Below are positions 9,487 to 29,318 of a stretch of DNA of 64,000 nt, one piece after another. The stretch is from Candidatus Methanorudis spinitermitis (GTDB lineage Archaea > Methanobacteriota > Methanobacteria > Methanobacteriales > Methanobacteriaceae). The stretch lies in assembly GCA_031286225.1 (NCBI GenBank), contig JAITUQ010000007.1:1-64000 (forward strand), read 5' to 3'. Positions within the stretch are counted from its first letter, which is position 1, and every line of letters begins with the position of its first letter. The position numbers and the translations under genes are program-made. The notes under the pieces are model-generated. The model was not told where the DNA came from, ran no database searches, and saw nothing but the letters and a program-made list of their open reading frames with translations.

Positions 9487-9934
9487 CTTAAAACAAAAAA
9501 ATAGCTAATTTATAATATTTATTATAAAACTAGTATCTATTATGAAATTTTTTTAATAATTATCATATTCTTATTTTTTAAAATTATAAACAAAATTTAA
9601 AATTTATACATTCTTATTTTTTACAAACATAGGTATTATCAATTAATTATTTTTACTTGAAAAAATTTTTTATTTAATCAAGCTTAAAAAAAAGAAATTT
9701 TTCTAAATTGTAAAATCTAATATTTAACAAAAATTTATAAAAATCTTTGATTTTCTTTATTTTAGAGTTTTTAGCTTTTAAATTAAAAAATTTCTGATTT
9801 TTTTATTTTTTAAAATAAAAAAAACAAAATATCATCTTTTAAAAATAAATAATAATTTTAAATATAATAATTAAAAGTTTAGTGTCTTTGGCTATATTAA
9901 ATTAATAAATAAAATCTAGATAAATATATAAATA

Positions 9935-10027
9935 AAGATAATAGTAGAAATTATAGAGTTACTCTTATGATAAATAAAGATATATAGTCTTAAGATAATA
10001 GTAGAAATTATAGAGTTAATCTTATGA
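9935..10027. repeat. Two 36-nt direct repeats upstream of the AIM24 gene
   Basis: Copies at 9935-9970 and 9992-10027 begin AAGATAATAGTAGAAATTAT and differ at one base, with a 57-nt period and a 21-nt spacer. They end 46 bases before the start codon of the AIM24-family gene, so they may be duplicated regulatory sites or a duplicated leader. The rest of the gap 9487-10073 is plain A/T-rich DNA with no ORF. Confidence 0.75.
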
Positions 10028-10073
10028 TTGACTTTTTATTCAATATTTATTAAATTTTTAGAGGTAAAAACTT

Positions 10074-10751
10074 ATGAAATATAAAATTGAAGGTGGAGCG
10101 TTTCCAGTTGTAATATGTGATTTAGATCAAGGAGAAAGAATGGTGACTGAAGGAGGAGGCATGGCTTTTATGTCTTCTCAAATGAAGATGGAAACAAGCA
10201 CTGGTGGAGGGCTTATGAAAGGACTTGCTAGAACACTTTCTGGAGAATCAATGTTTTTAAACTACTATACCGCAGAAGCTCCAGGTCAATCTATTGGATT
10301 TGCTTCAAGTTTTCCTGGAAATATTATACCAATAAAGTTAAATGGAACTAATACAATTATAGCCCAAAAAACTGCTTTTTTAGCTTCAGAAGAAGGAGTT
10401 GAAATTAGCACTCACTTTAGAAAAAGTTTAGCTACTGGATTCTTTGGTGGGGAAGGATTTATCTTACAAAAATTCTCTGGAGAAGGAATGGTATTTTTAG
10501 AAATTGATGGAGATACATTAGAATACAATCTAGAAGCTGGAGAAAAAATGATCATTGATCAGGGTCATCTTGCAGCTATGGATGAATCTGTAGAATTTGA
10601 TATACAAAGAGTAAAAGGTGTTAAAAATATGTTATTTGGTGGAGAAGGATTATTCTTAGCGAATGTCACAGGTCCTGGAAGAGTATGGGTCCAAACAATG
10701 CCTTTAAGTAATTTCGTGAATACTATCCTTCCATTTGTTAATACAGATTAG
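10074..10751 (+). CDS. AIM24/TIGR00266 family protein
   Basis: A 225-residue protein with the all-beta AIM24 fold (beta-prism repeats). Glycine-rich signatures are visible: GGGLMKGLARTLSGES near 45-60, GGEGFILQKFSGEG near 125-138 and a second GGEGLFLANVTGPG near 190-203. Family members have no settled role in archaea; in yeast AIM24 affects inner mitochondrial membrane organisation. There is no signal peptide. The start is supported by an AGAGGT SD about seven bases upstream. It is probably monocistronic and convergent with the thermosome gene. Confidence 0.88.
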   Translation: MKYKIEGGAFPVVICDLDQGERMVTEGGGMAFMSSQMKMETSTGGGLMKGLARTLSGESMFLNYYTAEAPGQSIGFASSFPGNIIPIKLNGTNTIIAQKTAFLASEEGVEISTHFRKSLATGFFGGEGFILQKFSGEGMVFLEIDGDTLEYNLEAGEKMIIDQGHLAAMDESVEFDIQRVKGVKNMLFGGEGLFLANVTGPGRVWVQTMPLSNFVNTILPFVNTD

Positions 10752-14771: not shown

Positions 14772-16409
14772 ATGAAAAAAATAGCTATGAGCGAAGCATG
14801 CCGCTTAATAATTAATAATATTCTAGAAGGAAAAATCAATTCTCGTGATGATTTAGAAAAAATTAAAAGGAAAATTTGTAGAGAATATAATCTAAAAAAA
14901 TTTATGAGTAATATTGATATTTTAGACTATGCTGCTATTGATGAAAAAGAAAGAGTAGCTAATGTTTTAAGAAAAAAACCAACAAGAACTATTTCAGGAG
15001 TAGCTATTGTAGCTGTAATGTGTCATCCTCACGATTGTCCTCATGGAAGATGTTTTTATTGTCCTGAAAGTGATGTTGCTCCTCCTAGCTATACTGGAGA
15101 AGAACCTGCAGCACTTAGGGCAAGAATGTTTAACTTCCATCCTTACATCCAAAGTTATAATAGGTTAAAACAACTTCATACTGTTGGACACCCTGTAGAT
15201 AAAGTTGAATTAATTATTATGGGAGGAACATTTCCTTCAAGAGATTTATCTTACCAAGAATGGTTCGTGTCCCAATGTCTAAAAGCTATAAATGATTTTG
15301 GTGGGTGGGACAAAAATCAAGTAAATGTTAAAACTTACCTTCCAAATGACTATGTTTTACTTGAAGATGTTCAAAAAGCTAATGAAATTGCTAAAGTTCG
15401 TTGTATAGGAATAACTTTTGAAACAAGACCAGACTATTGTAAAATAGAAGATGTTAATAGAATGTTAAAAATGGGAGTAACAAGAGTTGAGCTTGGTGTT
15501 CAAACAATTTTCAATAATATCTATGAAAAAATGGAAAGAGGTCATAGCGTCCGAGATGTAATTGAAGCAAATCAAATATTGAGAGATTCTGGAATTAAAG
15601 TAGCTATGCATTTCATGCCAGGATTATTAGCTACACCAAATGAAGATTATGAAATGTTTAAAGAGGTTTTCACAAATCCAAACTTCAAACCAGATATGGT
15701 AAAAATTTATCCTTGTCTTGTTACATATGGTAGTAAACTTTACAATTTATGGAAAGATGGAAAATACGAACCTTACAGCGATGATGAAGCTATTGATTTA
15801 ATTGTAAAAATTAAAAAAATACTTCCAAAATGGGTTAGAACAATGAGAATCCAGAGAGATATTCCCGCCAAATTAATAGAAGCTGGGGTAAAGAAATCTA
15901 ATCTTGGAGAACTTGTTTATAACCGACTTGAAGAAGAAAATATTAACTGTAAGTGTATACGTTGCAGAGAAATAGGTCATAGAATAAATAAATCAGGAAA
16001 TAAGTTAAAAATCAAAATCGATGACTTTGTAATATTTCAAGAAGAGTATGAAGCTACTGGTGGTAAGGAAATATTCTTATCATACGAAGATAAAGATGAA
16101 AAAACTTTAGCTGGATTTTTAAGACTAAGACTACCATCATCAGATGCACATAGAAAAGAAGTTGATAAGAACACAGCTATAGTTAGAGAACTCCATGTTT
16201 ATGGAAATATGCTTAAAATTGGTATAAAAGGAAAAGCAGCTGGGCAACATGCAGGTTTTGGTGAGAAATTACTTATCAAAGCTGAGAAAGTAGCTATTGA
16301 GAATAAAAAGAGCAAATTATTAATAATTAGTGGAATTGGAACACGTAACTATTATCGCAAATTTGGTTATGAAAAAGAAGGTCCTTATATGTCTAAAAAA
16401 TTGATTTAA
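14772..16409 (+). CDS. elp3: tRNA uridine(34) acetyltransferase Elp3 (radical SAM/GNAT)
   Basis: Archaeal Elp3 installs the carboxymethyl group at C5 of wobble uridine in tRNA, using S-adenosylmethionine and acetyl-CoA. The 545-residue protein has the N-terminal tRNA-binding region, the radical SAM cluster Cys89/Cys94/Cys97 (CPHGRCFYC), [11 protein letters not shown] near 215, four further Cys/His at about 394-404 ([11 protein letters not shown]) that bind zinc, and a C-terminal GNAT domain ([15 protein letters not shown]). Length and layout are complete. The SD is poor, but the start matches the family's conserved length. Confidence 0.96.
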
Positions 16410-16722
16410 AAATAATGAATTGTTATAGTGATTATTAAATTTATTTTACAAAATAATATTTATATAAAAATATTAAAATTATTCTTAAATCTTTAATAAT
16501 AATTAAATTTATAAAATAATTTATTTTTAAATAAACCTTATAAAAAAATTCTTATTTTTAATTATAATAATTAATATCAAATAATAATCTAAATAAATAA
16601 TTTTAAACTAAATGTTCATTATTATAAAAATATTTTGTAGTTTTATGAATATAATTTAAAAAAAAAAAAATATAAAATAATTTAGTATAATTTATGAAAA
16701 TATCTAAAATGATTGTGAAAAA
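16410..16722. other. 313-nt AT-rich gap, no gene seen
   Basis: Only A/T-rich DNA between elp3 and deoC. No ORF, strong hairpin or repeat was recognised. It must contain the deoC promoter. Confidence 0.4.
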
Positions 16723-17412
16723 ATGATAAAAATTAAATCAGCATTAGAATTAGCTAATATAATAGATCACACCAATTTAAGTAATGTTGCAACAAAATCA
16801 GATATAGAGCATCTATGTAAGCAAGCAAAACATTATAATTTTTATTCAGTGGTAGTAGCTCCTTATTATATAAAATATGTGAAAAATCTTTTAAATTCTA
16901 GTTCTACAAAGTTATGTACCGTGATTGGCTTTCCATTAGGCTTTGTAACTCCTAAAACAAAGGAAAAAGAAGTGAAAATAGCTATTAAAAGAGGAATTGA
17001 TGAAGTAGACATGGTGATAAATATATCTGCCCTAAAATCAGGAGACTGGGAAACAATAATAAAAGAAGTCGAAAAAGTAAAATCAATAGCTAGAAATAAA
17101 ATTCTTAAGGTTATTATTGAAGCAGAACTTCTAACAAAAGAAGAAATAATTAAAGTTTGTAAAATAGCTAATGATGGTGAAGCTGATTATATAAAAACAT
17201 CAACAGGGTTATCTGGACTAAGTCCAAAAATAGCTAATATTAATCTTATTAAAAAAACTGTTCCCAAAATGAAAGTAAAAGCTTCTGGTGGAATCAAAAA
17301 TTATAAAACAGCTTTTTCATTAATAGCCGCAGGAGCAGATAGAATAGGTACTTCTTCTGGTGATTTAATCATAGAAGAGTATAAAAATATCTATGAAAAC
17401 TTAATAGATTAG
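16723..17412 (+). CDS. deoC: Deoxyribose-phosphate aldolase
   Basis: Reversibly cleaves 2-deoxyribose-5-phosphate to glyceraldehyde-3-phosphate and acetaldehyde in deoxynucleoside breakdown. The 229-residue TIM barrel carries the catalytic set: Asp96 (DEVDMVIN), Schiff-base Lys158 (YIKTSTG) and Lys186 (VKASGGI), with the phosphate-binding GADRIGTSSG near the C-terminus. A GTGA SD precedes the ATG. A small cyclophilin-like gene follows 55 bases later on the same strand, and the two may form an operon. Confidence 0.95.
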   Translation: MIKIKSALELANIIDHTNLSNVATKSDIEHLCKQAKHYNFYSVVVAPYYIKYVKNLLNSSSTKLCTVIGFPLGFVTPKTKEKEVKIAIKRGIDEVDMVINISALKSGDWETIIKEVEKVKSIARNKILKVIIEAELLTKEEIIKVCKIANDGEADYIKTSTGLSGLSPKIANINLIKKTVPKMKVKASGGIKNYKTAFSLIAAGADRIGTSSGDLIIEEYKNIYENLID

Positions 17413-17467
17413 AAAAAATATCTAAAAAAGCATTGAAACACAACTAATAAATTGCTAAATAGTTCTT

Positions 17468-17824
17468 ATGAAAATAATAATTGAAGTAGAAGAAAAAGGA
17501 GAAGCTATAGCTGAATTAGATAATAGAAATCCAAAAATAGCTAAAGCTATTTACAACAACCTTCCAATTTATAACAGAGCATTAAGATGGTTAGATGAGC
17601 TATTTTTTGAAATCGAAGTAACAATGAATGATGAAAACCCTTCAAAAACTGCTGAAATTGGTGATATTAGCTATTGGAATCCTGGATATGCATTTTGCAT
17701 ATTTTTTGGAAATACTCAACCATATTCTGAAGTCAACCACATTGGGAAGATCACTGAAAATTTAGAGCTATTTTTTAATTGTGATGAAGGCGACAGAATC
17801 ATCCTTAGAAAGTATGAAGAATAG
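17468..17824 (+). CDS. Cyclophilin-like family protein (PF04126 type)
   Basis: A 118-residue protein with the beta-barrel of the archaeal cyclophilin-like family. Members are structurally like cyclophilins but lack proven prolyl-isomerase activity. Landmarks are YNNLPIYNRALRWLDELFFE (about 29-48), the GDISYWNPGYAFCIFFGNTQ segment and a final GDRIILRKYEE strand. It lies 55 bases downstream of deoC and is probably co-transcribed. Function unknown. Confidence 0.82.
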   Translation: MKIIIEVEEKGEAIAELDNRNPKIAKAIYNNLPIYNRALRWLDELFFEIEVTMNDENPSKTAEIGDISYWNPGYAFCIFFGNTQPYSEVNHIGKITENLELFFNCDEGDRIILRKYEE

Positions 17825-17868
17825 CTACTGATTTCATTATTTAATTTTATGATTAAATGATGAAATTA

Positions 17869-17912
17869 TGTATATTTAGAATTTCTTTAAACAGGTTCTC
17901 TATCAAGATTTC
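17869..17912 (-). pseudogene. Strongly decayed relic of the cofH 3' end
   Basis: Read on the minus strand this gives LDREPV, a stop, then RNSKYT, which lines up with the LDRLPIERNSKYSEF segment near the end of cofH (19849-20973). The DNA match includes ATATTTAGAATTTCTTT and CTATCAAGAT. It is the most degraded of three copies of this segment in the window. Confidence 0.6.
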
Positions 17913-17933
17913 TATTAAATAAATTTTAATTTA

Positions 17934-18257
17934 CTACATTAAACCTAAAAAATGCCCAGCAACGCCAATAAAAGTACCCAATACAACTGCCATAATTGCT
18001 ATCGGTATTGTCCCCATTTTATCCTCTTTAGCTACAGTAATTATTATTGGAAGAGCTAATACCAACGATACTATTCCTCCCTTAATCCACCAAATATTTT
18101 CCAATAAATTAAGATTAAAAATTATAAATGGCATTGTAAGGTAAAATGTAAATGCTGATAATGATGCATATTTATCTAACTTCATTTTTAACATTGGTAA
18201 TACATCAATTATTCCTGCAATAACTCCTATTAACAGGGTTAATAGAATTTTTTCCAT
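17934..18257 (-). CDS. Small integral membrane protein, unknown function
   Basis: A 107-residue, very hydrophobic protein with about four predicted transmembrane helices (roughly 3-22, 31-50, 57-76 and 84-106) and short charged loops (KMKLDKY, AKEDK). The ATG has a clear GGAGTGA SD, so it is probably expressed. It is not recognised as a known family. It sits between a decayed cofH tail and a tRNA 3'-end-like sequence, which suggests an accessory insertion. Confidence 0.65.
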   Translation of the reverse strand: MEKILLTLLIGVIAGIIDVLPMLKMKLDKYASLSAFTFYLTMPFIIFNLNLLENIWWIKGGIVSLVLALPIIITVAKEDKMGTIPIAIMAVVLGTFIGVAGHFLGLM

Positions 18258-18410
18258 AAAAAATCACTCCTTAAATTTAAACATACTTATTATATTTTCA
18301 TAACCTATATAAAATATATCAACACTAATAATTTTAAATTAATATATATTAATTATAATAGTTAAAAAGTAAATTTAAATTAAAAAAAATATAATCTTAA
18401 GATTGATAAC

Positions 18411-18429
18411 TCAAATCCCTCCAAGTCCA
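18411..18429 (+). other. tRNA 3'-end-like fragment, possible attachment-site remnant
   Basis: The 19 bases TCAAATCCCTCCAAGTCCA read like the end of a tRNA gene: part of a T loop, the 3' T-stem strand CCCTC, an acceptor strand CAAGTCC and a discriminator A. The matching 5' half is missing. Integrative elements that recombine into tRNA genes leave such partial copies. No full tRNA with the matching acceptor (GGACTTG) is in the window. Confidence 0.3.
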
Positions 18430-18504
18430 TTTGTTGTTTTTTGTTATTTTTAGTGTATTGTGAACATATTGACAAATGTTTTCAGATTATCTACTCTAAT
18501 ACTA

Positions 18505-19011
18505 CTATATTGAAAATTTTATTTTTTGTACAAATTCATCAATAGCTACATCGTCTATTTTAAATTCTTTATTAGCACCTTTAATTATAAATTGTGCGAT
18601 TTTACGATCCAAAAATTTCATTTTATCTAAGTTAAGTTCTCCTTCTAAAAATGCTGTGGCTATGCTATGATTTACAATTTCTGAAGGAAATACTTTATTA
18701 ATCTGTTTTATCCCCTCAACTTCGTTAGCTCCGCAAATAAACAAAGCAAAACGTTTTTCAATCAATGTATTTCTATATTTCTTAATAAAACTTTTAACTT
18801 CTTTTCTAATTCTACCCATATAAACAGAGCTTCCAATTATTAAAATATCACAATCAAGATTTACATCATCTTTTTCTTTAAGATTTATAAGTTCAACATC
18901 AATCGATCCATTATCGTCTTTATTATGATTCTTTATTATTAGTTTAGATATTAATTCAGCAATTTTTTCTGTAGTACCATACTTTGTTCCATATAAAATA
19001 GCTATTTTCAT
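18505..19011 (-). CDS. Flavodoxin-domain protein (HemG-like)
   Basis: A 168-residue FMN-binding protein. The N-terminal phosphate-binding loop is MKIAILYGTKYGTTEKIAELI, and DILIIGSSVYMGRIRKEVK resembles the flavodoxin-like protoporphyrinogen oxidase/'flavodoxin domain' family. The redox partner is unknown; a role in oxygen or redox stress is common for such proteins in methanogens but is inference. A GAGAGGA SD precedes the ATG. It is flanked by relics, so it may belong to an inserted or duplicated segment. Confidence 0.85.
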   Translation of the reverse strand: MKIAILYGTKYGTTEKIAELISKLIIKNHNKDDNGSIDVELINLKEKDDVNLDCDILIIGSSVYMGRIRKEVKSFIKKYRNTLIEKRFALFICGANEVEGIKQINKVFPSEIVNHSIATAFLEGELNLDKMKFLDRKIAQFIIKGANKEFKIDDVAIDEFVQKIKFSI

Positions 19012-19139
19012 TAAAATCCTCTCTCATATTCCATCAAAATGAAGTTTTATGAATCCATTGCATCAATCTAATTTTGTATTTTTCTAACAAATTTAACATG
19101 AATTATTGAAAAATCATAGAATGATTCCATTATTTCACT

Positions 19140-19193
19140 TTAATAATTAACAGGAAAAAATTCACTATATTTAGAATTTCTTTCAATAGGCAA
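19140..19193 (-). pseudogene. Relic of a second cofH 3' end
   Basis: The minus strand reads LPIERNSKYSEFFPVNY and stop, nearly identical to the last residues of the CofH encoded at 19849-20973 (LPIERNSKYSEFYPIKSY and stop). The reading frame and stop position are kept. Similarity continues past the stop (ATGATTCCA...ATTTCACT, about 19119-19139, against about 19823-19848). Nothing upstream of the Leu codon is left, so this is the 3' remnant of a former duplicate. Confidence 0.8.
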
Positions 19194-19422
19194 TTTTCTG
19201 AAATAATATTATATTGATTTCCATAGTATAAAAACCTTTATGTGTACTTTAAATTAAAAATAAGGTAAAAATAATTATACGATTAATCAAAACAGGTGAA
19301 AATAGCCAACATATATACATACATGCACCTTTTCCAAAAAAACAAAAAAGATAATAGATAAACTTATAATAAAAATTAGCAAAAAAGTATTATTGATTTT
19401 AAAAAAAAATAAGAAAAATTTA

Positions 19423-19599
19423 TTATTGAAGATCAGTTTTTAGTACATACTCATTGTCTATGAGTTCATATACTCTAGCACATCTAGGACAAACCCATTC
19501 AGGAGTATTCAAACAATCCCTATATAGACATTTACATTTTACTTTCGTACAATCTTTTTCCACATTTCTTGAGGATGTATTTACCAATGTTAGCACCAT
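19423..19599 (-). CDS. Small Cys-rich zinc-ribbon-like protein (58 aa)
   Basis: A 58-codon ORF. The protein has six Cys: Cys17, Cys22 and Cys24 (DCTKVKCKC), Cys29 (RDC), then Cys37 and Cys40 (WVCPRCARVYEL). The final CPxC ribbon knuckle and aromatic residues are typical of zinc-binding domains. Base composition is distinctly less AT-rich than the surrounding DNA, as in a gene. No clear SD is seen before the ATG, so the true start may differ. Function unknown. Confidence 0.6.
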   Translation of the reverse strand: MVLTLVNTSSRNVEKDCTKVKCKCLYRDCLNTPEWVCPRCARVYELIDNEYVLKTDLQ

Positions 19600-19848
19600 T
19601 TATTTTTTTAAGCAAATTTAAAAATAACTTATTTGTTATATTATAATTATATAATTAAAGCTATAAATTTTACTGTTTTTCAAATAAGTATTAAAAATAA
19701 ACAAAATCTACCTTAATAATGTAAAATACTAAAAAGTATTAAAAAAAGATTTAAAAAAAATAATATAGCTAAAAGAAGTTAATAGAAAAAGATTAAATGT
19801 TTAAAATAGTAAAAAAATATCTAATGATTCCACAATTTCACTCTATAA

Positions 19849-20973
19849 TTAATATGATTTAATTGGATAAAATTCACTATATTTAGAATTTCTTTCAATA
19901 GGCAATCTATCAAGATCTTTAACAATATTAGATAGCTGTTCAATAGATGCATCAACACCATCTGGAGCTCCTGAAGCTTGTGATAATTCATCACCACCTA
20001 AAGTTCCACCTAAATCATTAGCACCCGACGCCAAAGATACCTGAGCAAATTTAAACCCCATTTTAACCCAGGACACTTGTATATTTGGAATTAAATCTCT
20101 AAACATTAATCTAGATACTGCATATAGTTTTAAATCTTGTGTACCAGTTGCACCTAAATTTTTCTCTCCTGTCTTATAAATTGGAGAGTATTCATGCATA
20201 AAAGTCATAGGAATTAATTCAGTGAACCCCTTAGTTTCTGCTTGAATTTTTCTTAAAATATCTAAATGCTCAACACGTTCTTCAATTTTTTCTACATGCC
20301 CATACATAATTGTAGCTGAACTTGGAATTCCATTATTATGGCTAGCTTTTACAATATTTATCCAAGTTGAAACATTTACTTTTGAAGGGCAAATTAAATC
20401 CCTTGATCTATCTGTTAAAATTTCTGCTGCAGTTCCAGGTAATGTATCTAATCCTGCTTTTTTTAAGATTTTAAATGAATCATCAATACTCATTTCAGAG
20501 TTTATTGCTGCATCATGAATCATTGTTGGAGAAAATCCATGGATTGCAACATTTGGAAATTCATTTTTTAATAATTTAAGTAAATATTCATAATATTCAA
20601 TATCTGCATCAGGAAGAACACCACCCATTAGGCAAAACTCTCTAGCTCCATGCTCTACAGCTTGAGAAGCTTTTTGCAGTATTTCTTCATCATTTAAAAT
20701 ATAAGCCTCAACGTCACCTAAATCACGTGCAAAAGCACAAAAACCACATTTAACAGTGCAAATATTGGTAAAATTGATGTTACAATTATTAATAAAAGTT
20801 ACATTATTACCAACTATTTCTTTTCTTAAATAATCAGCTGTTGCAATTAAAGCAAATAAATCAGAACCATTAACATTTATTAAATAATTTGCATCTTCAT
20901 AAGATATTGGTTCATCAAGAGCTTTTTCTAAAATTTTTTGAGTTTTAAGAGAAATAGGCAATTTATCTAACAT
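19849..20973 (-). CDS. cofH: F420 biosynthesis radical SAM enzyme CofH
   Basis: CofH joins tyrosine to 5-amino-6-ribitylaminouracil, and CofG then closes the deazaflavin ring of coenzyme F420. The protein has 374 residues with radical SAM cysteines in TNICTVKCGFC (Cys72, Cys76 and Cys79 region). CofH-type landmarks are ADYLRKEIVGNNVTFINN, GLDTLPGTAAEIL, MYGHVEKIEERVEHL and GANDLGGTL. The choice of CofH over CofG rests on these motifs and on length. A GTGAT SD lies before the ATG. Two decayed copies of its 3' end lie downstream. No cofG was found in the window. Confidence 0.92.
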   Translation of the reverse strand: MLDKLPISLKTQKILEKALDEPISYEDANYLINVNGSDLFALIATADYLRKEIVGNNVTFINNCNINFTNICTVKCGFCAFARDLGDVEAYILNDEEILQKASQAVEHGAREFCLMGGVLPDADIEYYEYLLKLLKNEFPNVAIHGFSPTMIHDAAINSEMSIDDSFKILKKAGLDTLPGTAAEILTDRSRDLICPSKVNVSTWINIVKASHNNGIPSSATIMYGHVEKIEERVEHLDILRKIQAETKGFTELIPMTFMHEYSPIYKTGEKNLGATGTQDLKLYAVSRLMFRDLIPNIQVSWVKMGFKFAQVSLASGANDLGGTLGGDELSQASGAPDGVDASIEQLSNIVKDLDRLPIERNSKYSEFYPIKSY

Positions 20974-21164
20974 ATCATATCACTTTATTATAAAACTTAA
21001 TATATCTTTTTAGAATAGGAATAAACAATATTTAATATAAAATTCAAGTATTTAAATATATTAGTTTTGGACATGACTCTTATTTTGAGTTGAAAAGCTA
21101 GGAAAATCAGCCTATAAACTTTTAATAAATGTTCAAAAAAGGAATAAAAATAAGTAAAAAGGAA

Positions 21165-21237
<73 letters not shown>

Positions 21238-21239
21238 AA

Positions 21240-21311
<72 letters not shown>

Positions 21312-21715
21312 CATATACTGTCTAAAATATAGTTTAATTAATATATAACCTTTTCCATTTTTCTTTAAAAAATAAGAATTTATAATCAATATTATAATAA
21401 TAGCTATTAATAACTTAATAACTTTTCTAAATTTTATATCAAATAACTAATTGTTATTATTAAATAAAAAAATAAAATTTTTATTAAATTTTTTATCAAA
21501 TAGCTAATTTTTATTAAATAAAAAATTTAATAAAAAATAATTAAAGGCATAATATTGAGATAATCCTAAAACAAAAAGATTATCTATATTAGATTATGCA
21601 AAATTGTGAAAACTAAAAATACATAACTAGATGATATTTATAAATAAATATATCAAATTTGAAAATATTATAAAAAATAAAATTGGCCAGAATCGGCCAA
21701 TAGTTACAAAACTTT
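21312..21715. other. 404-nt AT-rich gap with simple repeats
   Basis: No gene is seen between tRNA-Val and the histone gene. The strings ATCAAATA(A/G)CTAAT and TTATTAAATAAAAAA recur in loose tandem around 21440-21530. The gap should hold the tRNA promoter and the histone terminator. Confidence 0.35.
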
Positions 21716-21916
21716 CTATTTGATAGCTAATTTTATATCTTCAGCTTTCACAGTTTTTCTACCGGCATGACGAGCATAGTCAACAGCTTTTTTAGCTAAT
21801 ACTTCACCTTGCTCTTCTAGTGCTTCAGCTAATGCAATTTTCGCGTCATCACTAATCCGTTGAGCACCAACATTTTTCAATATTCGACCGACTGGTGCAA
21901 TTGGTAATTCACTCAT
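21716..21916 (-). CDS. Archaeal histone (HMf family)
   Basis: A 66-residue DNA-wrapping protein with a single histone fold: helix 1 ([13 protein letters not shown]), the long helix 2 ([30 protein letters not shown]) and helix 3 ([11 protein letters not shown]). RKTVKAED and the Arg residues that contact DNA are present, and the length is standard. A strong GGAGGTGA SD and a TATA box lie immediately upstream, consistent with high expression. Confidence 0.97.
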
Positions 21917-21946
21917 TATTTCACCTCCAAATTATAATAGTACTAT

Positions 21947-21960
21947 CTTATATATAAATG
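21947..21960 (-). promoter_or_regulatory. TATA box of the histone gene
   Basis: On the minus strand CATTTATATATAAG lies 31-44 bases before the histone ATG. With the usual TATA-to-start spacing the mRNA would begin just upstream of the GGAGGTGA SD (21921-21928), giving a very short 5' leader. Confidence 0.55.
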
Positions 21961-22531
21961 TATTGGTTTTTATCTATCACAATTATGTTTATTTCATTAA
22001 TAATCATATCTGCATTATGGATTTTATAATATAAAAATTACAATAGATTTACCTATAATTCCAAGATTAATAATTAGTAAAACAAAAAATAACTAGTTGT
22101 AAAGACCTAGAAAAATCTTAAAAAAATCCATTGCAAAAAGCTTTATTTGAAAAATAAATATTTTTTTAAAGTTAAAAATAGAAAATATAAATGATCCATA
22201 ATTAATTCTAAATATAACTGATTTTTAAAAAAGCATGGTTTAAATAAAAATAAGATTATAGTTAATTTAGATAAATTATGGAAATCATCTTAGATTCCAT
22301 TATTATTAGCTATTACAAGGGATATTTTTCATGAATTTTTTAATAAATTTAGATTAGCTAATTATTTTTAATAATAAGTGGTATGAAAATAGCTAGCATA
22401 AAAATAACAAACATTTTATCTTAAAAATTGATTTTTTATTTTTTTTTATTAATAATTTAAATATATTATTTCAATATTAATGAAAAGTTAATATAAAACT
22501 AATTTATAATTTATATTGAGGTTGATTTTCA
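21961..22531. other. 571-nt AT-rich gap upstream of the restriction-modification gene
   Basis: No ORF with coding character was seen. The gap carries several TAGCTA-type words (for example near 22306, 22352 and 22388), which are also frequent in genes of this window. Confidence 0.4.
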
Positions 22532-25500
22532 ATGGAAGTTCCTGAAATTGTGAAAGATTTAGTTAAAAAATTCGAAGACAATATATATTCCTATAAGAAT
22601 CCAAAGTACAATGAAACAACAGTTAGACAGGAATTTATTGATCCATTATTTATAGCTTTAGGATGGGATGTAAATAATGAGCAAGGTTGGGCACCACAAT
22701 ATAGGGAAGTTATTCTTGAAGATGCTATAAAAATAGATGGAAAAACAAAAGCCCCTGATTATTCATTCACACTACATGGCCAGAGAATATTCTTTCTTGA
22801 AGCCAAAAAGCCAGCAGTAGATATTGTCAATGATAAATCACCAGCATATCAATTGAAAAGATATTCTTGGAGTGGAAAACTAGCACTATCTGTTCTAACA
22901 GACTTTGAACATTTAGCTATTTATGAAGCAAAAAGTAGGCCTAAAAAAACAGACAGCACAAAAATTGGAAGAGTAAAATTATACCATTATAAAGACTATA
23001 TTGAAAAATGGGAAGAGATATACAATTTACTTTCTAAAGATGCTGTATTGAAAGGTAGTTTTGATCGTTTTGCTAGTAAAAAAGTTAAAAAAGGAACCTC
23101 AGAAGTAGATGATGAATTTTTAAAAGAAATTGAAAATTGGAGACTTACATTAGCACGGAACATAGCTATTAGAAATAAAGAATTGTCTGTAGAAGATTTA
23201 AACTATGCAGTACAGTTAACAATAGATAGACTAATATTTTTAAGAATAGCTGAAGACAGAGGAATAGAACCTTATAAACAGCTATACAAGATCTTAGAAA
23301 AAGAAAATATATATCATGAATTTGGAAAGCTATGTCACAAAGCTGACGTGAAATATAACTCTGGATTATTCCATTTTAAAGAAGAAAAACAAATAAGCCA
23401 GCCAGCAGACACATTCACATTAGAACTTAATATAGACAATGGAGTATTTAAAGAAATCATTAAAAACTTATACTATCCAAACAGCCCTTATGAATTTTCA
23501 GTTTTATCTCCTGAAATACTTGGAAATGTTTATGAACAGTTTCTTGGAAAAGTTATAAGATTAACACCCTCTAATCAAGCAAAAATAGAAGAAAAACCAG
23601 AAGTCAAAAAAGCAGGAGGTGTATTCTACACACCACAATATATTGTAGATTACATTGTTAAAAACACAGTAGGAAAGCTAGTAATAAACAAAACACCAAA
23701 TCAAGTAGCTAAGCTGCGGATAGTTGATCCTGCATGTGGAAGTGGCTCATTCCTTCTTGGAGCATATAACTACCTACTCAAATGGCATATTGATTACTAC
23801 TCTAACTTAGAAAAACCTCCAAAAAACACCATATATCAAAGTAAAAATGGAAAATGGCACCTTACAATAGGAAAGAAAAAGGAAATCCTACTAAACAATA
23901 TTTATGGAGTAGACATAGATTTTAAAGCCGTAGAAGTAAGTAAATTAAGTTTACTACTAAAAGTACTTGAAGATGAAAACAAAGACGCATTAGAACAACA
24001 ACAAAAGCTAATACAAGAACGAGTACTACCTTACTTGGGAGATAATATAAGGTGTGGGAATTCATTAATAGCTACTGACATTTTAAAAGACGAAACATTA
24101 ACATTAGAAGAAATAGCTAATATTAATCCCTTTGATTGGGAAGAAGAGTTCCCAGCTATTTTTGAAAATGGAGGATTTGATGCAGTTATTGGTAATCCTC
24201 CTTATGTTCGCATCCAACTTTTAAAGCAGGATAAAAATTCTGTTAAGTATTTCAAAGAAAATTATGATTCTGCTGTTGGAAGTTATGATATTTATAATCT
24301 TTTTGTAGAAAAAGGATTAAAATTGATTGATAACCATTCCCATTTAGGATTTATTTTACCTAATAGGTTCATCTCAGCTAATTATGGAAAAGGATTGAGA
24401 GATTTAATAACTAATACTTCTTCATTAAATTCAATAATTAATTTTAAAGATAATCAAATCTTCAAAGGAGCCAGCACGTATACTTGTTTATTATTTTTAG
24501 AAAAAAATTCAAATAAGTTTAAATACGCTGAAATTAATGATTTAAATTTTAGCTCAAAAATTTTTAAAAGTATAGATGAAAATAATGACTTCGATGATGG
24601 AAATGTTAGTGTAGGTATTTTAGATAATTCTGTTTATTCAGAATCAGAATGGAGATTTTACATTGGGAAATCTGCAAATTTAGTTAATAAGCTAATGAGC
24701 ATGCCTATTAAATTGAATGATATTACAGAAAAAATATATGTTGGGCTTCAAACAAGTGCAGATAAAATATATATCTTGGACTTGGTAAATGATAAAGATG
24801 ATTTGTTGGAAGTTTATTCTCATCAAACTAAAAAGAATCATCTGATTGAGAAAAAAATTCTTAAAAAATATATTAAAGGTAAAGAAATTAAAAAATATCA
24901 CTTTAATGACCAAAATAAGTTTATTATATTCCCTTATATTTTAAATGAAAATGACTATGATTTAATTGAACAAAATGTTATGAAAGAAAAATATCCATTT
25001 TGTTGGAAATACTTAAAGGAAAATGAAAAAATCCTTAGATCTCGTGAAAATAATAAAATGAATGACAAAAATAAATGGTATGCTTTTACTTATCCTCGAA
25101 GTCTTTTAGAATATAGAAATAAAAAGATCATGACTCCTAATAGTGCTTTTAGTTCTTCATTTTCTTTTGATTCAGAGGGCAAATATTATATTACTGTTGG
25201 AGTAGCAGGAGGATACGCTATAAAATTAAAGAAAGATAATAATCTTAATGAATTTTATTTATTAGCTATTTTAAATTCTTCTCTAATGGATTTTTTAAAT
25301 AAAAAAATTGGAAAATCTTTAAGAGGTGGTTTTTACTCATTTGAAGGTAGAACAATTAAAAATTATCCTATTATAAAACTTTCTACTGATAAGCAGGATC
25401 CATTTATTGAATTAGCTGATAAAATGAACCAATTGAATAAGAAAATAGCTAATGTTAAATCTCCTCATGAAAAAAAATTAATAGAAAAACAGATTCTAAT

Positions 25501-25594
25501 TTCAGATAAAAGAATTAATGATTTTGTCTATGATTTATATGGGTTGAATGATGATGAAATTGACATTATTGAAAACGAATTAAGTGATTATTAA
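22532..25594 (+). CDS. Type IIG-like restriction-modification fusion enzyme (N6-adenine)
   Basis: A single 1020-residue protein that should both cut and methylate DNA. The N-terminus has a PD-(D/E)xK nuclease signature, Asp76 (PDYSF) and Glu90-Ala-Lys92 (FLEAKKP). A helical linker leads to a gamma-type adenine methyltransferase with motif I DPACGSGSFL (about 402-411) and motif IV NPPY (about 555). A C-terminal target-recognition region follows (from about 600, ending near FYSFEGRTIKNYPI). A GAGGTTGA SD precedes the ATG. Codon style shifts near 24130-24230, C-ending codons before and T-ending after, as if the recognition half had a different history. No separate specificity gene is present. 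Confidence 0.92.
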   Translation: MEVPEIVKDLVKKFEDNIYSYKNPKYNETTVRQEFIDPLFIALGWDVNNEQGWAPQYREVILEDAIKIDGKTKAPDYSFTLHGQRIFFLEAKKPAVDIVNDKSPAYQLKRYSWSGKLALSVLTDFEHLAIYEAKSRPKKTDSTKIGRVKLYHYKDYIEKWEEIYNLLSKDAVLKGSFDRFASKKVKKGTSEVDDEFLKEIENWRLTLARNIAIRNKELSVEDLNYAVQLTIDRLIFLRIAEDRGIEPYKQLYKILEKENIYHEFGKLCHKADVKYNSGLFHFKEEKQISQPADTFTLELNIDNGVFKEIIKNLYYPNSPYEFSVLSPEILGNVYEQFLGKVIRLTPSNQAKIEEKPEVKKAGGVFYTPQYIVDYIVKNTVGKLVINKTPNQVAKLRIVDPACGSGSFLLGAYNYLLKWHIDYYSNLEKPPKNTIYQSKNGKWHLTIGKKKEILLNNIYGVDIDFKAVEVSKLSLLLKVLEDENKDALEQQQKLIQERVLPYLGDNIRCGNSLIATDILKDETLTLEEIANINPFDWEEEFPAIFENGGFDAVIGNPPYVRIQLLKQDKNSVKYFKENYDSAVGSYDIYNLFVEKGLKLIDNHSHLGFILPNRFISANYGKGLRDLITNTSSLNSIINFKDNQIFKGASTYTCLLFLEKNSNKFKYAEINDLNFSSKIFKSIDENNDFDDGNVSVGILDNSVYSESEWRFYIGKSANLVNKLMSMPIKLNDITEKIYVGLQTSADKIYILDLVNDKDDLLEVYSHQTKKNHLIEKKILKKYIKGKEIKKYHFNDQNKFIIFPYILNENDYDLIEQNVMKEKYPFCWKYLKENEKILRSRENNKMNDKNKWYAFTYPRSLLEYRNKKIMTPNSAFSSSFSFDSEGKYYITVGVAGGYAIKLKKDNNLNEFYLLAILNSSLMDFLNKKIGKSLRGGFYSFEGRTIKNYPIIKLSTDKQDPFIELADKMNQLNKKIANVKSPHEKKLIEKQILISDKRINDFVYDLYGLNDDEIDIIENELSDY

Positions 25595-25762
25595 GATTTA
25601 TAGATAATATTGAGTGATAGCTAGTTTTTTTAGAGTTAATATAGGAAATATAAATTAAATAATTTAGATTGGATAACTATTATATTCAATGAGAAAATAG
25701 CTAATGTCCAATACTATTTTAATACTTTTCTATATATTTATTCAAGCTTTAATTTTTTATAA

Positions 25763-25861
25763 AGTAATCATAATTTCTGGAAAATGGATTATGATGATTT
25801 TTTAGAAGAAAGAAGAAAATTAATGGCTAAAAAAGTTAAAGAATACTTCATGAAATTGTAA
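25763..25861 (+). pseudogene. C-terminal gene relic, copy A
   Basis: The open stretch ends with FLEERRKLMAKKVKEYFMKL and a stop. It has no proper start, and an in-frame TAA lies directly upstream. It is repeated almost exactly at 26913-27017. The parent protein is not identified. The charged helical tail is like those closing some restriction-related proteins, but that is an impression only. Confidence 0.6.
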
Positions 25862-25971
25862 TTGATATATTTTATTATAAACTAAATACTCATCTATTTT
25901 ATATTCAGAAAATGATATTAATCTTAAAATCCTTATCATATCCTTTTACTTTTAGTTTTTTCTGTGTAATT

Positions 25972-26340
25972 TTATAGAAACTTTTCACATTCTTCAATGA
26001 ATGATTTTGTATTGTTTATAATTTCTTCTGTTTCCTCATTAGTGAAATCAGAGAACATATCATAGTCTGCTGTTTCTCTGTCATTTAAAAGTTCAGAGTA
26101 GAAGTCAAATAAATCTTTGCTGAAATTTTTATCATTGACAAATATTTGACTAAATAATTTTCTTGTTCCATGATGAGTTCTTGGGTCTTTATCTTCTTTA
26201 AGAAGAAGTGCTATTACAACATAATATACCGAATAGTATGAACGGTTAATAGCTGTTTCATAGTGCCCCATATCGAGATTATCTTTAGCAATTTCAATAA
26301 ATTCTTTTGACCTTGCAAAATAAGCATCTACTTTATCCAA
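25972..26340 (-). CDS. HEPN-domain protein of an MNT/HEPN pair
   Basis: A 122-residue all-helical protein, partner of the nucleotidyltransferase encoded upstream, whose end it overlaps by 8 bases. HEPN features are AINRSYYSVYYVVIALLL (about 32-49), RTHHGTRKLF and the RETADYDMF signature near 92-100. I see no canonical RxxxxH RNase motif near the C-terminus, so this may be the 'ADY'-type HEPN group rather than an active RNase. No ATG is available: TTG at 26340 follows an AAGGTG SD, and GTG at 26349 is the alternative. Such pairs act as toxin-antitoxin or defence modules. Confidence 0.85.
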   Translation of the reverse strand: MDKVDAYFARSKEFIEIAKDNLDMGHYETAINRSYYSVYYVVIALLLKEDKDPRTHHGTRKLFSQIFVNDKNFSKDLFDFYSELLNDRETADYDMFSDFTNEETEEIINNTKSFIEECEKFL

Positions 26341-26638
26341 TAACAACACCTTCTTTTCTTATGTTAGAATAAAAAGGCATATCCTTATATTTTTGGTAAT
26401 GCTCCACGGGATTGATTTTAACAGAGATATCTTCCATTGTTTCAAGTAATATATCACTTGCTTTAGAATAAACATCTTTTTTTAATTTTTTGGTTTTATT
26501 AGTAGCTATAATAAGAATATCGATGTCGGAGTCTTTGGTATCATCTCCTCTTGCAACAGACCCAAATAGAATGATTTTTTCTATTTCTGGATGATTTAAA
26601 GATTTTGCAAAGTCTATAGCTAATTGTTTTCTATCCAT
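26333..26638 (-). CDS. Minimal nucleotidyltransferase (MNT) of the MNT/HEPN pair
   Basis: A 101-residue minimal nucleotidyltransferase of the pol-beta superfamily, with the catalytic pattern LFGSVARGDDTKDSDIDILI (Gly-Ser, then Asp-x-Asp), so it should be active. In studied pairs MNT proteins adenylylate or otherwise silence their HEPN partner. The ATG at 26638 has a GGGTG SD. The longer frame from GTG at 26647 would start inside the SD. Its 3' end overlaps the HEPN start, so the two are translationally coupled. Confidence 0.88.
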   Translation of the reverse strand: MDRKQLAIDFAKSLNHPEIEKIILFGSVARGDDTKDSDIDILIIATNKTKKLKKDVYSKASDILLETMEDISVKINPVEHYQKYKDMPFYSNIRKEGVVIG

Positions 26639-26912
26639 TAGAAACACCCTATTATATAATTTATTTTTTACTTTATATAATCTATATAAAATATAAATAA
26701 TTTTATGTTTTTTATCATATTTTAATTTTTTAAAATTTATAAACTTACCTAAATTAATTTATTTGTTAACAAAAATTATTATTTTATTTATTTTAAAAAA
26801 CTTTTTATTTTTTAAAAGCAGAAAAAACGAAATTTTTCTTTATTTTTATAAAAAACATAAATAAAACTTTTAATATTTGAATTTACTACAAAATCTTATT
26901 TTAAATTTTTAT

Positions 26913-27017
26913 AAAAGTAATCAGAATTTCTGGAAAATGAATTATGGTGATTTTTTAGAAGAAAGAAGAAAATTAATGGCTAAAAAAGTTAAAGAATATT
27001 TCATGAAATTATATTGA
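26913..27017 (+). pseudogene. C-terminal gene relic, copy B
   Basis: A near-identical second copy of the relic at 25763-25861, reading SNQNFWKMNYGDFLEERRK and on to the same KKVKEYFMKL tail plus a Tyr before the stop. Just after it, 27020-27100 reads FDENEKTHNEYVKLAKDIFH in another open stretch, probably a further relic. The two copies flank the MNT/HEPN pair. Confidence 0.6.
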
Positions 27018-27152
27018 TATTTGATGAAAACGAAAAAACACATAATGAGTATGTAAAATTAGCTAAGGATATATTTCATGTTAAAATTAATATAATATAG
27101 TTATAATAATAAAATTTATTTTAAAATAAATATTTAATTTAAGGAAATAGGA

Positions 27153-27199
27153 CCTAAAAATCGGATTTTCCGATTCTTAGGCACCGTCCACCAAACCTT
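27153..27199 (+). ncRNA. Long hairpin followed by anti-SD motif, copy 1
   Basis: Positions 27153-27181 fold into a 13-bp stem (arms CCTAAAAATCGGA and TCCGATTCTTAGG, one mismatch) with a 3-base loop. Outside it GGAC can also pair with GTCC. The 14-mer GTCCACCAAACCTT follows at 27186-27199 and recurs exactly at 27350-27363. The GC content stands out in A/T-only DNA. It may be a small RNA, a leader, or a palindromic end of a mobile element. No known RNA family was recognised. Confidence 0.45.
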
Positions 27200-27249
27200 T
27201 ATTTAATTTATTGTAATTTTTAGTATATAAATATGTTGATAATAAATAT

Positions 27250-27260
27250 AATTATATATG
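27250..27260 (+). promoter_or_regulatory. TATA-like element before the 29-residue peptide leader
   Basis: AATTATATATG at 27250-27260 would place a transcript start near 27283, just ahead of the AGGTG SD of the 8-codon ORF. TATA-like strings are common in this composition, so support is modest. Confidence 0.3.
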
Positions 27261-27293
27261 TAATAAAAAAGTAATACTATTATGTAGGTGCTT

Positions 27294-27320
27294 ATGTTGG
27301 AAAGCTGGATAATTTCGTGA
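27294..27320 (+). CDS. Possible 8-residue leader peptide
   Basis: ATG with an AGGTG SD three bases upstream encodes MLESWIIS and ends at TGA. It lies 22 bases before a terminator-like hairpin and about 90 bases before a 29-codon ORF, the order seen in attenuators. Very short and unproven. Confidence 0.25.
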   Translation: MLESWIIS

Positions 27321-27342
27321 TATCACCAAATATTGGGAAAAT

Positions 27343-27384
27343 AAAACCTGTCCACCAAACCTTAAATGGGCGGTTTTTATTTTT
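27343..27384 (+). terminator. Terminator-like hairpin containing anti-SD motif, copy 2
   Basis: AAAACC-(T)-GTCCA at 27343-27354 pairs with TGGGCGGTTTT at 27367-27377: 11 bp with one bulged T and a 12-base loop. The T-rich tract TTTTTATTTTT follows at 27374-27384. The 14-mer GTCCACCAAACCTT (27350-27363) lies in the stem and loop. Its TCCACC and CCT are complementary to the SD AGGAGGTGGA at 27396-27405, so this strand could either form the hairpin or mask the SD. Confidence 0.45.
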
Positions 27385-27410
27385 ACTATCTAAATAGGAG
27401 GTGGATAATA

Positions 27411-27500
27411 ATGGACATCTATTATTATTTATCAATCACTTTATTGATAGTATTAATAGTATACAACTTACTATCCATTTACTCACTATTTAACAAGTAA
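27411..27500 (+). CDS. 29-residue single-pass membrane peptide (novel small ORF)
   Basis: The ORF begins at an ATG with an almost perfect SD, AGGAGGTGGA, five bases upstream. The product is MDIYYYLSITLLIVLIVYNL plus LSIYSLFNK: one hydrophobic helix of about 20 residues with Tyr-rich flanks and a final Lys. This is the size and shape of bacterial type I toxins and of tiny complex subunits such as KdpF or CydX, but no partner complex is encoded nearby. The leader contains two motif copies able to pair with the SD. It lies inside a broken copy of the MNT/HEPN region. Confidence 0.5.
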   Translation: MDIYYYLSITLLIVLIVYNLLSIYSLFNK

Positions 27501-27570
27501 TTGTCTCAATGGTTCATTTTAAAACATAAGCAACCTACATATTTATTTTAATAAGTATATATTACTCTAA

Positions 27571-27645
27571 AGCAAAAAATTTGAAAGATATATTGATTAT
27601 GTTAATAGAATAGCTTCTGAATCTTCATTGAATAAAGCTAAATAA
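27571..27645 (+). pseudogene. Short C-terminal gene relic
   Basis: An open stretch without a start codon reads SKKFERYIDYVNRIASESSL plus NKAK and a stop. The composition is protein-like (Arg, Tyr, Ser). Parent gene unknown. It is one of several fragments in the 25.7-27.8 kb gene graveyard. Confidence 0.35.
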
Positions 27646-27693
27646 ATCTTTTAGTTACTATATTGGGGTTAAAACTTAAGGAAATGTTTCACT

Positions 27694-27800
27694 ATTAGTG
27701 AAATCATAGAACATGTCATAGTCTGCTGTTTCTCTGTCGTTTAAAAGTTCAGAGTAAAAGTCAAATAAATCTTGCTGAAATTTTTATCATTTATAAATAT
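27694..27800 (-). pseudogene. Frameshifted fragment of a second HEPN gene
   Basis: About 107 bases match the 3' part of the intact HEPN gene (26037-26143) at roughly 90 percent by eye, including the DRETADYDM codons. One base is lost near 27770, breaking the frame, and the rest of the gene and its MNT partner are gone. It is evidence of a former tandem duplication of the module. Confidence 0.8.
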
Positions 27801-27861
27801 ATAATGGCTTTATTTTTAGAATATGGATCTATTTTAAAAAAATTGTAAGTATATATAAATG

Positions 27862-27972
27862 AATTAATAAAAATTAATAAAAATTAATAAAAATTAATAA
27901 AAATTAATAAAAATTAATAAAAATTAATAAAAATTAATAAAAATTAATAAAAATTAATAAAAATTAATAAAA
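27862..27972. repeat. 10-nt tandem repeat, about 11 copies (AAATTAATAA)
   Basis: Ten exact copies of AAATTAATAA run from 27871 to 27970, with a near-complete copy in front. The array ends 27 bases after the stop codon of the methylthiotransferase gene (27999), in the gap behind it. Such arrays change copy number easily, so it could serve as a strain marker. Confidence 0.92.
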
Positions 27973-27998
27973 CATAAATATTAATATAAAAAGGTTTA

Positions 27999-29318
27999 TT
28001 AAACTTTTTCTCCTCTTAAATACGTACTAGTAGCTTCAGTAATTTTAATATCAACAAAAGTTCCAATATCAACATCATCAACAATTACTGGAATATAAGA
28101 GTTAGTCTTAGCTATGAATCCTCCTTTATTCCCTTTTTCAACAACTAATGCTCTTTGAACAGTTCTCATTAGCTGTTTATTTTCATCTTTAGTTATTTGT
28201 GATTTAATTTTGGTTATATACTTAGATCGTCTTTTCATAACCTCATATGGAATTTCAGTAAGTATTGATGATGGAGCCCCTTCCCTATGCTTATATTTAG
28301 ATAAATGTATTAATCCTGGTTTTAATTCTTTTAAAAATTTGGAAGTTTCATTAAAATCTTTTTCGGTTTCTGTTGGATATCCTACTATAATATCAGTAGC
28401 TATTGTCAATTCAGGAATTTTTTGTCTAAATTTTTTAACAATAGCTTTATATTCTTCAGCAAAATGATCACGTCCCATATCACGTAAAATCTTATTACAT
28501 CCACTTTGAATTGGTAAATGAATGAATTTATAAACATTTTGAAGCTTAAAAGCTTTTATTAAATCATCAAGATCATTTCCAATGCTTTTAGGATGCATCA
28601 TTCCAATACGAACTCTAAAATCACCATCAATAGTAGCTATTTCTTCAATAAGCTTAGACAATTTTTCATTAGTATCTTTACCAAATGCAGCTGTATCTTG
28701 AGCAGTTAATTGGATTTCCACGCAACCATCAGCTATGGCTTCTTTTGCTTCTTTTTTTATTTCACTTATTGAATAGCTATTTAATGAGCCTCTTGCAAAG
28801 CGAGTACAGCAATAGCTACATGAGCCTAAACATCCTTCACATATTTGAATAATATGGATATATGGATCAAAACGTAGTTTAGGAACTCCTACTTTTGTAT
28901 CATTTGAAAATCCACATGCTTTACTTATTTTTCCATTTAAAGATGATTTTACAACATTTGTTGTTTTTTTAAGCTTATGTGGCCCTATCCAACTAGAATC
29001 AGGAGCTATTTTTTCAAGTTTTTTTGGATCTATCTCAACCATACACCCACTAACAATAAGTTTTTTTTCAGGAAATTCAGACTGTATTTTCTGTATTCTA
29101 TTTGTAACCTTACTTTCAGTTGGTTGTTTAACATAACAAGTATTAACAATAGTTACATCTGCTTTTTCAATAGAATTAACAACTTGAATATTATTTTTTA
29201 ATAAATTTCCAGCCATTATCTGTGAATCAGCTTTGTTAAATGTACATCCAAATGTTTCAATAAATACTCTAATCTGAGTTTTATTATCTTCTATTTCTTC
29301 TAACATGGTATCAGGCAT
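27999..29318 (-). CDS. tRNA methylthiotransferase (MiaB/e-MtaB, CDKAL1-like)
   Basis: Adds a methylthio group to threonylcarbamoyladenosine-37 in tRNA. The 439-residue protein has the N-terminal UPF0004 domain with three cluster Cys (ETFGCTFNKAD, VNTCYVK, VSGCMVEI), a radical SAM domain with CLGSCSYC, and a C-terminal TRAM domain ending in EATSTYLRG. The archaeal/eukaryotic subfamily fits a t6A rather than an i6A substrate. There is no good SD; Met5 is an alternative start. The HVO_0476-type zinc finger gene lies 121 bases upstream on the same strand. Confidence 0.93.
   Translation of the reverse strand: MPDTMLEEIEDNKTQIRVFIETFGCTFNKADSQIMAGNLLKNNIQVVNSIEKADVTIVNTCYVKQPTESKVTNRIQKIQSEFPEKKLIVSGCMVEIDPKKLEKIAPDSSWIGPHKLKKTTNVVKSSLNGKISKACGFSNDTKVGVPKLRFDPYIHIIQICEGCLGSCSYCCTRFARGSLNSYSISEIKKEAKEAIADGCVEIQLTAQDTAAFGKDTNEKLSKLIEEIATIDGDFRVRIGMMHPKSIGNDLDDLIKAFKLQNVYKFIHLPIQSGCNKILRDMGRDHFAEEYKAIVKKFRQKIPELTIATDIIVGYPTETEKDFNETSKFLKELKPGLIHLSKYKHREGAPSSILTEIPYEVMKRRSKYITKIKSQITKDENKQLMRTVQRALVVEKGNKGGFIAKTNSYIPVIVDDVDIGTFVDIKITEATSTYLRGEKV

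Follow-up and report, generated by a model that had tools for sequence, protein, structure and literature searches.

Why does the last part of an intact gene recur twice, in decayed form, a short way downstream of that gene? The question is raised by a window of 64,000 nucleotides from Candidatus Methanorudis spinitermitis (contig JAITUQ010000007.1, positions 1 to 64,000, the whole stretch of DNA that was analysed), a gut-type methane-making archaeon whose genome (G000) comprises 1.91 Mb in 55 contigs. The gene, cofH (19849..20973, minus strand), encodes a 374-aa protein with domains PF04055 and PF19288 that scores 451 bits against TIGR03551 (cut-off 374.1), the model for CofH, subunit 2 of FO synthase. 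Downstream of it, in the same orientation, stand a small gene here called zn58, a first decayed copy of the cofH end (relic 1), a flavodoxin-like gene, a gene for a 107-aa protein and a second decayed copy (relic 2); beyond these, convergently, lie a cyclophilin-like gene and then deoC and an ELP3-like gene. On balance, both relics appear to be remnants of extra copies of cofH, of the same type as the intact gene, that were duplicated locally and then mostly deleted.

Relic 1 (19101..19194, minus strand) retains the last 17 cofH codons, the stop codon and about 45 bp of the 3′ flank. Read on the minus strand from 19193 to 19140, it translates to LPIERNSKYSEFFPVNY followed by a stop, and it is 94% identical over 48 nt to positions 19859–19906 of cofH; the match picks up again beyond the stop (19101–19142 against 19804–19845, 76%), giving 81% over 95 nt overall. 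Relic 2 (17831..17909, minus strand) is older and adjoins the 3′ end of the cyclophilin-like gene (17468..17824, plus strand; PF04126, 120 bits), with which it is convergent. It is 79% identical to the cofH end over 82 nt and reads LDREPV, an in-frame stop and RNSKYT. A search of the whole genome with the 97-nt cofH end recovered cofH itself at 1.9e-45, relic 1 at 8.4e-18 and relic 2 at 2.2e-12, with the next-best of 30 matches at 5.5e-4. With these E values chance matches were rejected, and the relics are the only convincing extra cofH ends in the genome. The flank past the stop was copied as well, as judged by local alignment scores for relic 1 (z 5.1, 0 of 300 dinucleotide shuffles as good) and relic 2 (z 4.1–4.6, 0 to 1 of 300). 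A preliminary description of the window, which reported three cofH 3′ ends, two of them decayed, is borne out by the whole-genome search. It placed the relics correctly, except that its right edge for relic 2 (17912) lay a few nucleotides too far, and it understated their extent, which includes roughly 45 bp beyond the stop. No function of the relics was seen, and none is needed; among known RNA families, only two tRNAs reach the gathering score within 16300–22600.

The Methanobacteriaceae possess two CofH types, about 53% identical to each other, with type A found in Methanobrevibacter-like gut lineages and type B in most other members of the family; the two co-occur in three genomes (G017, G026 and G033), whose cofH is 86–88% identical at the protein level to that of the window. 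The window gene is type A, and this type is the source family of the relics: type B was rejected as a source, its best score being 37 against 85–96 for type A (for relic 2, at best 85 with type A and 37 with type B). Equal similarity to other cofH paralogues, which the preliminary description considered a counter-indication, was thus not observed. The closest named records to the window cofH are L047, a Methanobrevibacter metagenome-assembled genome labelled Lab288P3bin120 (90% protein identity), and L048, Candidatus Methanobinarius endosymbioticus (85%). In the cofH protein tree, the window and L047 are sisters (support 94/97) and L048 falls outside the pair.

Extra cofH ends are restricted to these two sister genomes. 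The 138 genomes of the family were searched with the window's own cofH end and at most six candidates scored per genome, a design that would miss heavily decayed relics in distant genera; 37 genomes gave matches at 1e-6, and 35 of them gave a single match. The remaining two were G062, with two matches, and G000, with three (intact cofH counted); judged by contig places, G062 is the genome of L047, which has its own type A relic elsewhere, at about L047 9736–9783. A second scan covered 77 stretches, the window included, in which the cofH end of each stretch served as query against both strands on either side of the gene. At least three contigs occur twice under two ids, many stretches extend less than 8 kb downstream, and 15 distant bacterial loci (L109, L110, L112–L124 and on) were left out. 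The two relics of the window (90 and 79) and that of L047 (73) stand out from all other scores, which are 48 or lower. A candidate type A relic in L048 at +455 was rejected, as its score of 48 compares with a background that elsewhere reaches 47 and its sequence is unconvincing. No distant relative was found with extra cofH ends, and the same arrangement in such relatives, which the preliminary description named as refuting its reading, is not seen. Within the window itself, close nearby copies are rare among the 94 ends of its 47 open reading frames (ORFs) of at least 90 aa: the cofH 3′ end is one case, and the others are a gene pair at 26–27.7 kb and neighbouring paralogues at 61–63.5 kb. 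An assembly or binning artefact might be suspected in a 55-contig genome with an AT-rich zone containing repeats, but pairwise differences among the copies amount to 6 to 29%, and L047, which was assembled separately, has a relic of its own; such an artefact is extremely improbable.

Comparison with L047 suggests how relic 1 arose. The order in L047 is histone, tRNA-Val, tRNA-Phe, zn58, cofH, flavodoxin, relic and deoC. The gene zn58 (19423..19599, minus strand; name coined in this analysis), which encodes a 58-aa Cys-rich protein with no match in Pfam, NCBIfam or PADLOC, is located upstream of cofH in L047 and L048 (in the latter frameshifted, behind the tRNA) and downstream of cofH, between it and relic 1, in the window. 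Because L048 lies outside the pair formed by the window and L047, the upstream position is the simpler ancestral state. The zn58 segment common to both sisters (19368..19757, minus strand) is 92% identical over 391 nt to L047 7403–7791, a stretch that reaches almost to the tRNA. In addition, window positions 18500–19192, comprising the flavodoxin-like gene (18505..19011, minus strand; PF12724, 86 bits), its leader and relic 1, align with L047 9733–9070 in a single 693-bp alignment at 84%. This alignment covers the intact cofH end of L047, and relic 1 therefore stands at the position of the L047 cofH end. The locus thus shows a change of gene order, from zn58–cofH in L047 and L048 to cofH–zn58 in the window, of the kind that tandem duplication and random loss (TDRL) can produce, and a remnant at the place which that process predicts, between zn58 and flavodoxin.

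The trace expected from loss of the other redundant copy is provided by the spacer between tRNA-Phe and cofH (20976..21165, no strand assigned), which appears chimeric. Its first 20 nt agree at 19 of 20 positions with the sequence behind the L047 tRNA, and its next 16 nt agree at all 16 positions with that behind L047 zn58 (both compared by eye); as a whole, it matches the L047 zn58–cofH spacer (z 13.5), and the window's cofH–zn58 spacer matches the L047 tRNA–zn58 spacer (z 21.1). The chimeric spacer looks like a deletion scar, left when zn58 was lost between two similar T-rich repeats. Alternatively, L047 and L048 may have gained zn58 by an insertion that duplicated 20 bp of target, the window having kept the empty site. 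This possibility fits the same repeats, and the support that the scar lends to a loss of zn58 is consequently moderate. Even if the site was empty, the position of relic 1 behind zn58 indicates that, in the lineage of the window, zn58 formerly had a cofH end behind it.

Under duplication and loss, the events leading to relic 1 would have started from an ancestor with the order tRNA, zn58, cofH and flavodoxin, as kept in L047. Tandem duplication of zn58 and cofH, perhaps through slippage between two T-rich tracts, of which one follows the tRNA and the other cofH, would have yielded an intermediate with two complete cofH genes. The first zn58 would then have been deleted between two 20-nt imperfect repeats, leaving the scar, and the second cofH would have been reduced by deletion to its terminal 17 codons, the stop and the 3′ flank, resulting in the order cofH, zn58, relic 1, flavodoxin. 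In the L047 locus, TTTTTTACTTAT is present in only two copies, one behind the tRNA (L047 7360) and one behind cofH (L047 9146), and slippage between them is possible in an L047-type order. The successive duplication that the preliminary description proposed as one origin of the relics is hence supported, best for relic 1, through the gene order and the scar relative to L047.

Several observations weigh against this reconstruction. The segment between the gene and its remnant does not derive wholly from the duplicated unit: the unique stretch of about 172 bp that separates zn58 from relic 1 (19195..19368, no strand assigned) has no second copy in the genome and no significant match to the zn58–cofH spacers (z −1.0 and 0.7), so that a further event, such as an extra insertion, is needed. 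A complete intermediate with two type A copies was found in 0 of the 60 genomes compared, though such intermediates are short-lived and their sighting is not strictly required. Nothing but the 3′ end survives in any of the three relics (two in the window, one in L047), and the starts of relic 1 and of its L047 counterpart fall at nearly the same base (AAATTGCC), a pattern not expected of random loss; a leftward extension of relic 1 past this shared start is weakly indicated, with 3 to 12 of 300 shuffles as good across four references. Finally, the 12-mer that the two presumed slippage sites share, in the flanks of the L047 tRNA and cofH, falls short of significance (102 of 1000 shuffles).

Some of these features fit the main rival of duplication and loss, in which a single event joined an accessory segment behind cofH and directly duplicated some 100 bp of the gene's end, whether through end-joining, through template switching or through a circle that carried a fragment of the cofH end and entered by a single crossover. 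No complete second cofH would ever have existed. The short duplicated stretch (about 100 bp for relic 1 and similarly short in L047), the survival of 3′ ends alone and the nearly coincident left edges in relic 1 and its L047 counterpart are all consistent with it, and the unique 172 bp could belong to the inserted DNA. However, the former place of zn58 across cofH looks like a deletion scar, and given that zn58 previously stood on the other side of cofH, this route requires its excision and re-entry within 2 kb. The left edge of relic 2 also differs from the other two. Such an insertion is a possible but rather unlikely origin of the relics.

The arrangement also recalls integrative elements that occupy tRNA genes or the 3′ ends of other genes, which are of the tyrosine-integrase type. 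These likewise present an intact gene followed by cargo, beyond which the gene's 3′ end recurs, displaced but in the same orientation. A mobile element or cassette that targets the cofH 3′ end site-specifically and restores it, with the relics as displaced target ends, was the other origin put forward in the preliminary description. Consistent with this, the relics lie beyond the presumed cargo, as expected, and the cargo is sporadic: zn58 and the flavodoxin-like gene each occur in 5 of the 138 family genomes, and the gene for the 107-aa hydrophobic protein (17934..18257, minus strand; no Pfam match, probably a membrane protein as judged by eye) in G000 alone. A tRNA-Phe 3′-end repeat also lies near cofH in G033. 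Against it, the ORFs of the intervals between cofH and the relics include no recombinase gene, and the genome's single tyrosine-integrase gene (PF00589; C13:95157–95678) is about 74 kb away. Furthermore, the duplication extends past the stop codon, relatives already have zn58 adjoining cofH on its opposite side, and the arrangement is seen in two sister genomes only. The left edges give a mixed picture, being nearly shared by relic 1 and the L047 relic but not by relic 2. The motif was found in 0 viral contigs, a result of little weight as the scan used one exact degenerate pattern. The element reading is not supported and is distinctly improbable. The PF00589 gene, situated near the end of the window's contig, is possibly the housekeeping Xer recombinase.

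Integron cassette arrays resemble the locus in forming a row of single genes, most of them followed by a related repeat; in the window, by contrast, the repeated unit comes from the end of a housekeeping gene's coding sequence rather than from an attC site, and no integrase was seen in the intervals. A related idea is that the cofH 3′ end serves as a recurrent capture site, at which zn58, the flavodoxin-like gene and the 107-aa gene were set in successively without an integrase of their own, each insertion restoring cofH while a further cofH end came to lie beyond the cargo. The route might possibly be the same as the one that copied the tRNA pair in G017 and G033. This is very improbable on present evidence, although if true it would represent a new way to store accessory genes behind a housekeeping gene.

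For relic 2, the informative neighbour is the cyclophilin-like gene, which is present in 5 of the 138 family genomes, that of the window included. In the other 4 of 4, its convergent neighbour is the 3′ end of a type B cofH, 64 to about 860 bp away. The arrangement is an old one, given that a cofH end adjoins this gene in relatives, and since relic 2 is type A, a type A cofH once stood beside it. The comparison that the preliminary description recommended thus gave a divided answer, in that relatives do have cofH next to the cyclophilin-like gene, but their gene belongs to type B and the relic to type A. Relic 2 fits an older type A end that marks an earlier gene position, with the event that generated it less certain than for relic 1. 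Replacement or translocation of cofH beside the cyclophilin-like gene, unrelated to any duplication, could also have left it there, as suggested by the adjacency in all four relatives and by relic 2 being the most decayed. However, the relatives carry type B at this place, and relic 1 is left unexplained; this origin is improbable, though it can hold alongside duplication and loss. When relic 2 is set against the L047 relic, 5 mismatches are counted by eye among 37 core positions, and the flanking sequences show no resemblance (z −1.2 to −1.5). In L047, the stretch from the relic to deoC (9783–10402) contains no cyclophilin-like gene and shows inverted repeats with a higher G+C content.

TDRL is known from mitochondrial genomes, for which one report interprets gene overlaps as duplication remnants and calls one of 74 nt strong evidence (PMC5569537). 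As in that account, neighbouring genes in the window have been reordered, and part of the redundant copy survives at the breakpoint. The window differs in being part of an archaeal chromosome, in that the same gene left more than one remnant, in showing no complete duplicated intermediate and in its unexplained 172-bp stretch. A term search of the text of a 2026 comparative paper on Methanobacteriota returned no mention of cofH, rearrangement or synteny (PMC13135261). Literature searches on archaeal elements in protein genes and on prokaryotic duplication and loss yielded nothing on this locus, which does not prove its absence from print. Most likely, the relics are the ordinary residue that duplication and loss left in a zone undergoing rearrangement, though unusually legible. 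Changes of gene order by duplication and loss are usually inferred from the order alone; here, the steps can be read because the window keeps a set of remnants and its sister shows the earlier order. For annotators, the locus advises caution, as a decayed gene end next to accessory genes is not necessarily the mark of an integrated element.

The zone from the histone gene to deoC is unstable across the whole group. In the window, its rearranged part is bounded upstream by tRNA-Phe (21164–21238, minus strand) and tRNA-Val (21240–21311, minus strand). G017 has two more tRNA-Val/Phe pairs, both decayed, that enclose a small AHSA1-like gene and an adhesin-like one, and G033 has a decayed pair downstream of cofH together with the tRNA-Phe 3′-end repeat and its flank (decayed copies in these two genomes at L032 10066–10444 and 13333–13711, and L034 9664–9915 and 15615–15801). 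The window holds a second partly lost duplication, visible in the pairs 25748–25868/26900–27020 (93% over 122 nt) and 26029–26145/27685–27800 (91% over 117 nt). Local duplication with decay is thus habitual in the region, which supports the explanation of the relics by duplication and loss. One of the G033 copies consists of the last part of tRNA-Phe and flank only, like an attachment site, and this lone repeat would suit an old integrative element at the tRNA. The duplication at 25.7–27.8 kb spans a gene pair (25972–26349 and 26333–26647) resembling MntA/HEPN toxin–antitoxin genes. Type B cofH is located near the histone gene in G017, G026, G033 and L047, is decayed in L048 and was not found in G000. 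Remnants of it were sought in the window at 21900–28100 and rejected, with no tblastn match at E ≤ 1 and two weak nucleotide matches only. The stretch where relatives have type B cofH is occupied in the window by a type IIG restriction enzyme–methyltransferase gene (22532–25594; PDLC03604, 865 bits).

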